From: Oceanicaulis sp. HTCC2633
Lineage (GTDB): Bacteria > Pseudomonadota > Alphaproteobacteria > Caulobacterales > Maricaulaceae
Length of the DNA: 64,000 bases
NCBI RefSeq assembly: GCF_000152745.1
Contig: NZ_CH672428.1
Coordinates: forward strand, 1,937,327 to 2,001,326
Direction of reading: 5' to 3'
Under the pieces are notes generated by a model. That model ran no database searches. It was given only the letters and a program-made list of their open reading frames with translations, and was not told the origin of the DNA. This document shows positions 10,074 to 12,541 of the stretch, piece after piece. Within the stretch, counting starts at the first letter, position 1. Every line of letters starts with the position of its first letter. The position numbers and the translations under genes are program-made.

Positions 10074-10105
10074 AACCCCGCCGTGGAAACGCGGCGGGGT
10101 TTTTC
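10074..10105 (+). terminator. Intrinsic terminator after rpsP
   Basis: AACCCCGCCG (10074-10083) pairs with CGGCGGGGTT (10092-10101), followed by TTTT. It ends the ffh-rpsP transcript about 25 bases after the rpsP stop. Confidence 0.85.
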
Positions 10106-10168: not shown

Positions 10169-10183
10169 GTTCTAGTTTTGTTC
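10169..10183 (+). promoter_or_regulatory. LexA (SOS) box upstream of dinB
   Basis: An exact GTTC-N7-GTTC direct repeat, the alphaproteobacterial LexA operator, 32 bases before the dinB ATG at 10216. An identical-pattern site lies upstream of mmcB at 29465-29479. Confidence 0.85.
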
Positions 10184-10215
10184 TGTAGCGGACAGCCGCC
10201 TGCGGAACACGAACC

Positions 10216-11463
10216 ATGCGCAAGCCAGAGACCATCGAGCAGCTCTATCTCGACTTTGACAGCTTCTTTGCGAGCGTCGAGCAATACGCCGATCCGCGCC
10301 TGCGTGGCCGCCCTGTCGGGGTGATCCCCATGCAGGGCGCGCGCAATACCTGCATCATCGCCGCCTCCAAGGAAGCCAAGGCGAAGGGCGCAAGCTCGGT
10401 GATGACCGTGCGTGAGGCGCGCGAGGCGGTGCCCGACATGATCCTGGTGGATCAGAAGCCGGATCTCTATCGCCGCATGCACGCCCTGATGATCGCCGAG
10501 ATCCGGGCCGTGCTGCCCATTGGCGCGGTGAAATCCATTGATGAGCTGACCTGCCCGCTCGACGGCCGCGCCATCGCCGACCCTGAAGGCGTCTCGAACG
10601 CCATCAAGGCGCGCATCGCGGCGCAGACCGACGGCGTCGTCACCTGCTCGATCGGCATGGCGCCCAATCGCTTCCTCGCCAAGATGGCCTGCAAGCTGGG
10701 TAAACCAGACGGTTTGACCATCTGGCGGCCCGAGGATTTGCCGGGGCCCTTGCTCAAACGTCCGCTCGACGAAGCGCCGGGCATTGGCTCCTCCATGCGC
10801 AAGCGCCTTCTGAAGGCGGGCGTGGCGGACATGAAGGCGCTCTGGGCGCTGCAGCCCAAGCAGATGCGCGCCCTGTGGCGCAATGTGGCGGGCGAGCGCT
10901 TCTGGTACGCCCTACACGGCTATGCGGTCCAGGCCGAGCCCGCCAAGCGGCGCATGTATGGCCATGGCCGCGTGCTGCCGCCCAGCCACCGCACCTGGCC
11001 CAGCGCCTATGACTGCGCGCGATTGCTGACGGTGAAGGCCGCCCGCCGCATGCGCCGGGACGGCCGCACCGCCGGGCGCATGGGTTTGTGGCTGCGCCAT
11101 ATCGAGGGCGGGTGGAGCGGGGAATTGCCCCTGCACAGCGCCCGCACCGATCGCGATTGCCTCAAGGCGCTCGACACGCTGTGGGCCGCCGCCCAGCGGG
11201 CGGACCCGCGCGCCCGCCCCATGCGGGCCGGCATGTATCTGGCCGATCTTGATGATCCCGGCGTCACCCAGACTGACTGGCTGATTGACGACAAGCCCGA
11301 GGATCGCGCCCGCCGCGACGCCCTGCAGGACGCCATCGACTCCATCAATAGCCGCTACGCCAAGTCGCTGGTGACCCAGGGCGTCTGGACCCCGCCGCCC
11401 GGCGGCTATGCCGGCGGCAAGATCGCTTTCACACGCATTCCCTATGCCGAGGACTTCTGGTGA
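10216..11463 (+). CDS. dinB: Y-family DNA polymerase (DinB-like)
   Basis: A 415-residue error-prone translesion polymerase. The palm has YLDFDSFFASVEQ with catalytic Asp13 and KSIDEL with Asp109/Glu110; CSIGMAPNRFLAKMACKLGKPDG is the expected next block; a helix-hairpin-helix (EAPGIGSSMRKRLLKAG) and a C-terminal little-finger region follow. It diverges from canonical Pol IV in the little finger (GHGRVLPPSHRTWPSAYDCA), and I see no QLSLF-like clamp-binding peptide at its end. A LexA box stands 32 bases upstream, so SOS induction is expected. The stop TGA overlaps the start of the next gene by one base, giving a two-gene operon. Confidence 0.93.
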   Translation: MRKPETIEQLYLDFDSFFASVEQYADPRLRGRPVGVIPMQGARNTCIIAASKEAKAKGASSVMTVREAREAVPDMILVDQKPDLYRRMHALMIAEIRAVLPIGAVKSIDELTCPLDGRAIADPEGVSNAIKARIAAQTDGVVTCSIGMAPNRFLAKMACKLGKPDGLTIWRPEDLPGPLLKRPLDEAPGIGSSMRKRLLKAGVADMKALWALQPKQMRALWRNVAGERFWYALHGYAVQAEPAKRRMYGHGRVLPPSHRTWPSAYDCARLLTVKAARRMRRDGRTAGRMGLWLRHIEGGWSGELPLHSARTDRDCLKALDTLWAAAQRADPRARPMRAGMYLADLDDPGVTQTDWLIDDKPEDRARRDALQDAIDSINSRYAKSLVTQGVWTPPPGGYAGGKIAFTRIPYAEDFW

Positions 11464-11714
11464 TGACCTGGAAAACCGAACTGCGCCTTGACGATCTCGA
11501 CCCGCACAGCCGGCTCGAGGCCTTTTGCACCGCCTGCAGCGCGGCGCGCTATTACACCGTGCAGGAATTGCTGGCCCGCCGCGCGCTGGCCCACGCCCAT
11601 CTGGATGAGGTGGAAACCGCGCTTCAATGCGCCCAGCCCGGCTGCCGCGCCCCCGTCACGCTTTACGAAGTGAGCGCGGGCGAGACCGAAGCCTTCCAGG
11701 GCGGCATGCCCTAG
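11463..11714 (+). CDS. Small zinc-ribbon-like protein in the dinB operon
   Basis: An 83-residue protein whose ATG overlaps the dinB stop (TGATG at 11461-11465), so translation is coupled. It contains Cys22-x2-Cys25 (FCTAC) and Cys56-x4-Cys61 (CAQPGC), a layout suited to binding one zinc ion. An alternative GTG start one codon upstream is possible. Its function is unknown. Being coupled to an SOS-controlled polymerase suggests a role in the damage response, such as binding DNA or the polymerase, but that is inference. The last four bases overlap the convergent PLA2-like gene. Confidence 0.8.
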   Translation: MTWKTELRLDDLDPHSRLEAFCTACSAARYYTVQELLARRALAHAHLDEVETALQCAQPGCRAPVTLYEVSAGETEAFQGGMP

Positions 11715-12541
11715 GGAGTGATCCGCTTGACCGTGTTACAGCCATTCATCGACATGCGCTCCAGATTGACGGCCTCAAGATCGCCGCGAGAGCTGACCAT
11801 GCGCTCTTCAAAATGGTCAAAATGGCAGGTGAAGCTGGACTGCAGGGCCTGAACGGGAACCGCATTGCAGGTCCCCGGCGTGTCGGGAAAACCCGTCAGC
11901 ATCCGCGACAGGGCGGTGAAGGCGGCGGTCTCCAGCGAGTTCCTGAGCCCGCTCACCTCCCCGATGGATCGGGTATCAAGGCGTTCATCGAGCGCACGCT
12001 GGGCGTCATCATTGCCAAAGAAGGCCAGGATCGTATCCGTATTGTTCTGCGCCTGAAGCCGCTCATAGGCTTCCGTCTCGGCATCCGTGCGCTCCAGACG
12101 CGCCCGGTTCTCCAGACCCCGCCCGAAGGCGAACTTGGTGTGAAACGGCGTCTGGATTTCATGAGCGAGGTTAATGCAGGCATCCTCCTCATCGCTGGTC
12201 ATGGCGAACAGGCCTTCGGGCACGGACGCTTCGGAGAAATAGCTCAGAGCGCCCACCATCGCGTAATCACAGCCGGGATGGTCGCGGCCATGGGTTTCAT
12301 AGCAGACGTCATGGGCGCGGCAGATGGCGTCAATGCCGTCCACCGGAACCAGCGTGTTGAGCACCTCAAGCTGAAGCGCCGAGTCCTCACTGACCCGTTC
12401 CGGAACCCCCGGACCGCAGAAATTGCCGTAATGATAGGCGCGGCCTTCCTCGGGAAACGCATACTGACTGGTCAGTGACGCGGTTTCACAGCCGCTCAAG
12501 GCCACAAGACCTGCAAGACTTACAACCAGAGCCCTATTCAT
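11711..12541 (-). CDS. Lipoprotein with phospholipase A2-like active-site motif
   Basis: A 276-residue lipoprotein starting at 12541 (signal MNRALVVSLAGLVALSGC, lipidated Cys18). Residues 38-45 (YGNFCGPG) resemble the calcium loop of secreted phospholipase A2 and residues 71-81 (DAICRAHDVCY) match the PLA2 active-site helix pattern C-x2-HD-x-CY with His77/Asp78. A further GCDYA at 90-94 is where the family keeps a Cys-Asp pair. The remaining C-terminal half has no recognised domain but has paired Cys. If active it would cleave the sn-2 ester of phospholipids at the membrane surface. An upstream start at 12598 would add 19 residues before the signal and is less likely. Confidence 0.75.
   Translation of the reverse strand: MNRALVVSLAGLVALSGCETASLTSQYAFPEEGRAYHYGNFCGPGVPERVSEDSALQLEVLNTLVPVDGIDAICRAHDVCYETHGRDHPGCDYAMVGALSYFSEASVPEGLFAMTSDEEDACINLAHEIQTPFHTKFAFGRGLENRARLERTDAETEAYERLQAQNNTDTILAFFGNDDAQRALDERLDTRSIGEVSGLRNSLETAAFTALSRMLTGFPDTPGTCNAVPVQALQSSFTCHFDHFEERMVSSRGDLEAVNLERMSMNGCNTVKRITP

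Follow-up and report, generated by a model that had tools for sequence, protein, structure and literature searches.

A Small Cys4 Protein Encoded with a Y-Family DNA Polymerase, and Its Candidate Role as an Accessory Subunit, in Alphaproteobacteria

Introduction

In the UmuC-UmuD system (Pol V), a LexA-controlled Y-family polymerase with a clamp peptide and a RecA-NT motif adjoins the gene of a small partner; UmuD is an S24-type self-cleaving protein. Passages in two papers trace the RecA-NT motif in UmuC, YqjW, and other polymerases, and describe the putative YqjW-YqjX and UvrX-YolD systems of Bacillus subtilis, in which an SOS-induced RecA-NT polymerase is accompanied by a small neighbouring subunit (PMC6511836; PMC12926913). 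The main text of a 2026 survey of bacterial polymerases distinguishes 11 complex types, whose small partners are UmuD', YqjX/YolD and variants, ImuB-C, and SRAP-like proteins; it includes PolY with a stand-alone ImuB-C, a UmuC-like polymerase with an SRAP-like protein, and the ImuA-ImuB-DnaE2 mutasome, which carries out LexA-controlled mutagenic synthesis in Proteobacteria (PMC12926913). A zinc-ribbon partner is not named in that main text, where the word "zinc" occurs once, in the title of a reference (PMC12926913), and none is described for a Y-family polymerase in the titles and abstracts listed by full-text searches of open-access PMC articles.

Here we describe a two-gene unit consisting of a Y-family polymerase and a small Cys4 protein (SP), found in a 64-kb stretch of DNA (the window). 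The unit is like Pol V in having a putatively LexA-controlled Y-family polymerase with a candidate clamp-type peptide, a possible RecA-NT-like motif, and an adjoining small partner gene; unlike UmuD, SP is a Cys4 domain encoded 3' of the polymerase, and no S24 family appears among the matches of 30 SPs. With YqjW-YqjX/YolD it shares a small neighbouring gene and may share a RecA-NT-like polymerase and SOS induction, whereas YolD is an SH3-like barrel of PF08863, a family matched by none of the 30 SPs. The PolY/ImuB-C and UmuC-like/SRAP arrangements also place an accessory gene near the polymerase, but their accessory proteins belong to other families; SRAP genes adjoin one polymerase-SP unit and two lone SP-like genes. 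The LexA-controlled mutagenic synthesis of ImuA-ImuB-DnaE2 is also predicted for the pair, and the two have partly complementary distributions; however, that system needs DnaE2 and an inactive Y-family homologue, whereas the window polymerase keeps its catalytic residues and its genome has one DnaE. Pol IV (DinB, PRK02794) has the same Y-family fold and catalytic residues but is not an orthologue. The pair combines a Y-family polymerase with what may be a new sort of small subunit.

Results

Organization of the locus

The unit lies between rpsP (Ribosomal_S16 match) and a convergent gene on the opposite strand. Its features, in window coordinates, are as follows.

10074..10101, + strand: hairpin and U-run, probably terminating the rpsP unit that lies upstream (MFE -25.4, z -5.95)
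10169..10183, + strand: LexA-type (SOS) box GTTCTAGTTTTGTTC, an exact pattern match in a conserved place
10216..11463 including the stop codon, + strand: Y-family DNA polymerase of 415 aa with catalytic D13, D109, and E110 kept
11269..11283, + strand: QTDWL, a degenerate form of a clamp-type peptide by sequence comparison with group A
11317..11382, + strand: RecA-NT/DUF4113-like motif DALQDAIDSINSRYAKSLVTQG, recognized by eye and from weak DUF4113 matches of relatives
11401..11460, + strand: conserved C-terminal tail GGYAGGKIAFTRIPYAEDFW of the polymerase, from the alignment
11463..11714, + strand: SP, an 83-residue Cys4 (zinc-ribbon-like) protein whose ATG start overlaps the polymerase stop
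11694..11711, + strand: SP C-terminal tail FQGGMP, with low model confidence; F78 and G81 are invariant in 30 aligned SPs

The hairpin at 10074-10101 is absent from the list of a separate pattern scan. The box GTTCTAGTTTTGTTC starts 47 bp and ends 32 bp upstream of the polymerase ATG at 10216. The first-pass annotation had described a small Cys4 gene coupled to the polymerase, and the overlap of stop and start codons at 11463 confirms it; an overlapping GTG at 11460 is an alternative SP start (ORF 11460-11714, 84 aa). The convergent gene (11711-12541, - strand) starts like a lipoprotein, as judged by eye, and matches phospholipase A2 weakly (E 0.001, below cut-off).

Identity of the polymerase

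The gene at 10216-11463 encodes a Y-family DNA polymerase. It matches PF00817 (Pfam, E 1.6e-31), D13 and D109 are present in all 140 aligned sequences and E110 in 139 of them, and the predicted structure (pLDDT 85.5) has a Y-family fold, with Dpo4, Dbh, and DinB as Foldseek matches in the PDB. The name dinB, given to it at first, belongs elsewhere: the genome has two Y-family genes, and its Pol IV is the other one, which scores 632 bits against a cut-off of 371 for PRK02794. Orthology of the window polymerase to Pol IV was rejected, the best model (subfamily PRK03858) reaching only 135 bits against a cut-off of 367 and the best equivalog Pol IV model (PRK01810) 122 bits against 399. The genome's Pol IV (L001:799-2076, - strand) has an N-terminal Cys4 motif of its own, CRSC...CARC.

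Polymerases of the order fall into a group with SP (group A; 511-779 bits to the polymerase profile) and two groups in which no SP was seen (groups B and C; 313-494 bits); further matches in the order, Pol IV among them, lie at or below 137 bits. In 17 of the 18 plasmid records listed, the polymerase is named "type VI secretion protein ImpB". This identity was also rejected, since all five Pfam families listed for it are of polymerase or helix-hairpin-helix type, apart from one weak match (Cdd1, E 0.11); the record name looks like a clash of gene names.

A conserved SOS box

The window holds 5 exact GTTC-N7-GTTC boxes against 1.33 expected (about 1 per 48 kb), and the genome 79 against 63 for the reversed pattern, so that a single exact box was not accepted as proof by itself. 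The box stands above chance because its place is conserved across relatives. In named genomes 396 polymerase relatives were found, and our counts cover the best 80: an exact box lies upstream in 73 of these, and in 71 of 77 upstream windows of 250 bp, against a mean of 0.7 and a maximum of 4 boxed windows among 77 in 200 dinucleotide shuffles and none in 77 downstream windows 300-550 bp past the polymerase. Seven of the best 80 of the 396 have no exact box in the upstream window; one (L203) has only 59 bp of upstream sequence, one (L145) has a one-mismatch box at -23, and in the remaining five no box appears even when a mismatch is allowed. Boxes also precede 17 of 19 loci from a viral collection, the two boxless ones having 40 bp or less of upstream sequence, and in the order-level set an exact box precedes 27 of 29 polymerases with SP and all 42 examined polymerases without it.

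In the window's own genome an exact GTTC-N7-GTTC box lies before lexA, identified from an ORF piece cut by the locus end (LexA_DNA_bind, 52 bits; TIGR00498, 94.5 bits against a cut-off of 110.95), and one exact box and one with a mismatch lie beside recA. The earlier description of an exact SOS box before dinB thus holds for the box, exact and conserved in place, and fails for the gene behind it, which is not Pol IV. By the criterion of a conserved GTTC-N7-GTTC box, the polymerase-SP unit is a predicted member of the LexA (SOS) regulon in Alphaproteobacteria; LexA would bind at the box, and the unit would be induced by DNA damage. Two other ORFs of the genome (L027 and L029) directly follow GTTC-N7-GTTC boxes; one starts MAYATKSAGYARNAG, and the other presumably encodes a radical-SAM protein.

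The small protein

SP of the window has cysteines at positions 22, 25, 56, and 61. Thirty aligned SPs all have D11, C25, C56, C61, F78, and G81, and nearly all have C22 and E49; W3 is nearly invariant among 14 closer SPs. The Cys22-x2-Cys25/Cys56-x4-Cys61 pattern originally given is true of the window copy but is not a fixed spacing, the second pair being C-x2-C in six order loci. With two conserved Cys pairs, SP is probably zinc-ribbon-like and may well bind zinc; zinc-ribbon models are matched by single members (the best, a TFIIS ribbon at E 8.3e-6, by 5 of 30), and the window's own SP matches none in Pfam at E <=1. The AlphaFold model is a compact domain (mean pLDDT 83.5) with residues 73-83 under pLDDT 50. 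The C-terminal end nevertheless reads F-x-[GAD]-G-[MLIV] in 90 of 91 distinct SPs, the third residue being Gly in 85; such conservation in a flexible end would be expected of a binding peptide. Its identification as a clamp peptide was rejected: among the 90 tails, F is followed by Gln in 26 and by Val in 57.

No convincing known fold or family was found for SP. The 30 SPs match 19 families in all at E <=1, and the S24 peptidase family and PF08863 (YolD) are not among them. Foldseek with the SP model gave no match under E 1e-3, a second-look structure comparison (VIA) gave HypA at best (Z 4.4, rmsd 3.0 over 52 residues), a profile search of the PDB gave nothing under 0.04, and the best PHROGs match had E 0.0023. 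The window copy has no Pfam or NCBIfam model at E <=1, in agreement with its first description as an unknown protein.

Pairing of SP with the polymerase

A sequence search found SP in 14 of 200 genomes of the order, directly after such a polymerase in 13 of 15 places. SP is patchily distributed: profile searches gave SP-like matches, some of them weak, in 35 genomes of 398 from the order and 9 of 385 from the class. Within the order, SP stands beside all 29 group A polymerases above 500 bits and beside none of the 42 lower-scoring ones examined (of 93 places at 300-494 bits); a 6-bit SP match at one locus (L126) is a 42-residue ORF without the Cys pairs.

The earlier expectation that SP would adjoin the polymerase in relatives is borne out in named genomes, where SP follows the polymerase in 78 of the best 80 of 396 relatives, an upper-end figure because the query profile came from SP-bearing loci. 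Seventy-four of these were found by script and four by reading or at contig ends (SP is cut by the contig end in L169 and starts near it in L187, and lies a few hundred bp on in L179 and L180); L145 and L200 have no SP. The stop and start codons share 4 nt in 63 of the 74 scripted loci and 1 nt in 9. The best 80 are titled as Caulobacterales, Hyphomicrobiales, Sphingomonadales, Kordiimonadales, Rhodospirillaceae, and other Alphaproteobacteria, with a few metagenome-assembled genomes labelled Bryobacterales, Nitrospinaceae, or Proteobacteria. Over 60 pairs, SP and polymerase distances are correlated (rho 0.68, with none of 500 permutations as high), in a comparison that ignores species kinship.

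In the window's genus, none of four other genomes matched in the first sequence search, and absence of SP from the genus was considered; it was rejected because two genomes (G218 and G277) match in the profile search and two more (G173 and G138) carry a divergent SP beside the polymerase. Polymerases of groups A-C are absent from ten further genomes of the genus: nine contain a single match at 104.9-124 bits, taken for Pol IV, and one (G363) contains none. The SP profile search covered nine of these ten (all but G398) and gave no match.

The pair also occurs on plasmids and in contigs of a viral collection. Eighteen plasmid records have a polymerase match; among eight plasmid regions opened, five have a small annotated gene directly after the polymerase, one has an unannotated SP, and the two with the most distant polymerases have no SP. 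In contigs of the viral collection, the label being the collection's own, SP follows in 18 of 19, and the 19th ends at polymerase residue 248. On the conjugative plasmid pBY3 of Aeromonas salmonicida (L244), a gammaproteobacterial host, the pair lies near an IS91-like element and beside tet(Y).

Two other explanations of the pairing bear on these data. If the pair were mobile cargo, and SP a companion of the polymerase that serves in stability, as an antitoxin, or in anti-defence, the patchy spread, the 18 plasmid records (one of them this conjugative Aeromonas plasmid), and the 19 viral-collection contigs would be accounted for; however, the window pair is chromosomal, after rpsP, gene order and overlap are kept in differing surroundings, and SP tracks the polymerase in sequence, and we consider this explanation improbable. 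That the neighbourhood is accidental, or the small ORF not a gene, is an idea encouraged by the lack of a Pfam or NCBIfam model for the window SP, but D11, the Cys pairs, F78, and G81 are conserved over distant relatives, and the small gene is annotated as protein-coding in five of the eight plasmid regions, which leaves the idea barely credible.

The polymerase C-terminus

Past the little finger, a clamp-type peptide QLD[LMFIW][LFW] is found in 79 of 98 group A sequences, and Gln is first at this position in 97; in groups B and C, DLF ends the position in 38 of 42. The window polymerase and two same-genus relatives have QTDWL instead. The polymerase had been said to lack a visible clamp-binding peptide, which fits the window's genus but not the family, and the argument for an adaptor drawn from that lack is weak because most relatives carry the peptide. 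From the aligned sequences, we propose that the polymerase docks on the clamp via a QxxL(F)-type peptide, which is weakened in this genus.

The peptide is followed by a helix, D-x-L-N-x-[RK]-[YF]-[GA]-K, and a tail, GGKIAFTRIPxAEDFW. The helix appears to resemble the motif of the RecA-NT-bearing polymerase group of Timinskas and Venclovas. Positions 2-23 of DUF4113 are matched weakly in all seven relatives tested (E 0.0065-0.18, below the curated cut-off), and the window polymerase has no DUF4113 match; hhalign to RecA N-termini gave P 0.005 and a probability of 6.8%, with one of five control segments reaching P 0.0087. The tail was considered as an SP-binding site and rejected, as the SP-less groups keep a similar one. 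SP does not explain the polymerase tail, because groups B and C have both a similar tail and a similar motif; since the box is theirs too (42 of 42), some polymerases of the family do without SP.

SP-like genes away from the polymerase

In one genus of the order (g54), 34 places with lone SP-like genes are listed; 30 have loci, and 29 were refound. Three of these adjoin a polymerase, leaving 26, all from a single genus and not independent. An exact box lies within 250 bp of the domain in 20 of the 26 (shuffle mean 0.24, maximum 2), and 22 count as boxed when one no more than 100 bp from the ORF start is accepted too; L277, L279, L280, and L290 have none, and several places have stop codons inside the match. 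In nine of the 26 (L263-L271) a long tail contains a clamp-type peptide, QLSLPL (4), QYDLPM (3), QLDLPL (1), or QLELF (1), the first of which we take to be the clamp peptide of Hda. None of these nine forms has the F-x-G-G-M end, as might be expected if their role changed after duplication.

At two loci (L251 and L058) the SP-like gene is divergent to an SRAP gene, with a box between them, and in Maritalea a polymerase-SP unit adjoins an annotated SRAP gene. In L058/L254 (= L287) and L285 the SP-like domain ends a longer ORF with about 100 extra N-terminal residues and a box before it. Of six weak class-level matches, three have a box within 250 bp (L257, L259, and L261), two have none (L258 and L260), and one (L262) has two boxes about 500 bp upstream; two further places (L052 and L055) look like remnants, with neither polymerase nor box. 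The window's genome contains a short ORF (L018:545-745; C1 near 160636), beginning MNWRSGLQLRD, 29 bp after an exact SOS box; it resembles the first 24 SP residues (E 0.00056; tblastn 39.6% over 48 aa) and is perhaps a truncated lone SP. These sequences are further hints that the SP domain works in the DNA-damage response, and that some of its forms are connected with the clamp.

Because SP-like genes stand alone in one genus, SP may have a job of its own, as an SOS-induced protein (a replication brake bound to clamp or DNA, a checkpoint factor, or a transcription factor) that is merely co-expressed with the polymerase. The lone genes with their own box (22 of 26), the nine with clamp-type peptides, and the two divergent to SRAP genes across a box would all suit such a protein. 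In the loci seen across the class, however, SP keeps to a single polymerase clade, with which its codons overlap, and is found beside none of the 42 sister polymerases examined, and the nine clamp-peptide forms are those without the F-x-G-G-M end; we regard an independent job, the main alternative, as unlikely, while giving it appreciable weight.

Distribution relative to DnaE2

LexA-controlled mutagenic synthesis in Proteobacteria is carried out by ImuA-ImuB-DnaE2, and the presence of a second DnaE was compared in hand-picked genomes from matched genera, the two pieces in one genome (G302) being counted as one gene. Among 65 genomes, 9 of the 28 that carry the pair have a second DnaE, as do 28 of the 37 that lack it (P 0.0009, kinship ignored); with five genomes added, three from the window's genus and two with a broken pair, the counts are 10 of 30 and 29 of 40 (P 0.0016, kinship again ignored). 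Within the window's genus they are 0 of 5 with the pair and 8 of 10 without it (P 0.007; before the additions, 7 of 7 genomes lacking the pair), two draft genomes (G363 and G366) having neither pair nor second DnaE. The window's own genome has one DnaE. A group B or C polymerase is present in some of the genomes that lack both SP and DnaE2, so what the contrast reflects may be the LexA-controlled polymerases and not SP.

Discussion

Our analysis favours a role for SP in the work of the polymerase: it is probably a zinc-ribbon accessory subunit of a LexA-controlled translesion polymerase, the two forming one LexA-repressed unit. DNA damage would lead to cleavage of LexA and transcription of the unit, and the overlapping stop and start codons would cause polymerase and SP to be made together. 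The polymerase would be docked by its clamp-type peptide and RecA-NT-like helix, as in UmuC-type polymerases, and SP would bind it and control its recruitment, stability, or access to the primer end, acting through the ribbon and the F-x-G-G-[MLI] tail, which is probably flexible; RecA would be a likely third partner. SP would thus play the part of UmuD' in Pol V, a part also proposed for YqjX/YolD in Firmicutes. The contact between SP and polymerase, and its effect on synthesis, are what we infer from their conserved association.

A broader reading is offered tentatively, and we think it somewhat doubtful: the pair may be a further multi-subunit mutagenic polymerase type, PolY-SP-RecA, beyond the 11 types of the survey, with a zinc ribbon where UmuD' and YolD stand; it could replace ImuA-ImuB-DnaE2 and travel on plasmids, and the zinc-ribbon family may have spread in some bacteria as LexA-controlled, clamp-targeted adaptors acting in trans.

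Small partners restrain translesion polymerases, and few such partners are known. If the proposed role is true, the pair helps explain damage-induced mutation in bacteria without DnaE2, and it would correct public records that name the polymerase a type VI secretion protein. The recurrence of the pair in many Alphaproteobacteria and on some plasmids points to an unrecognized partner in the copying of damaged DNA.
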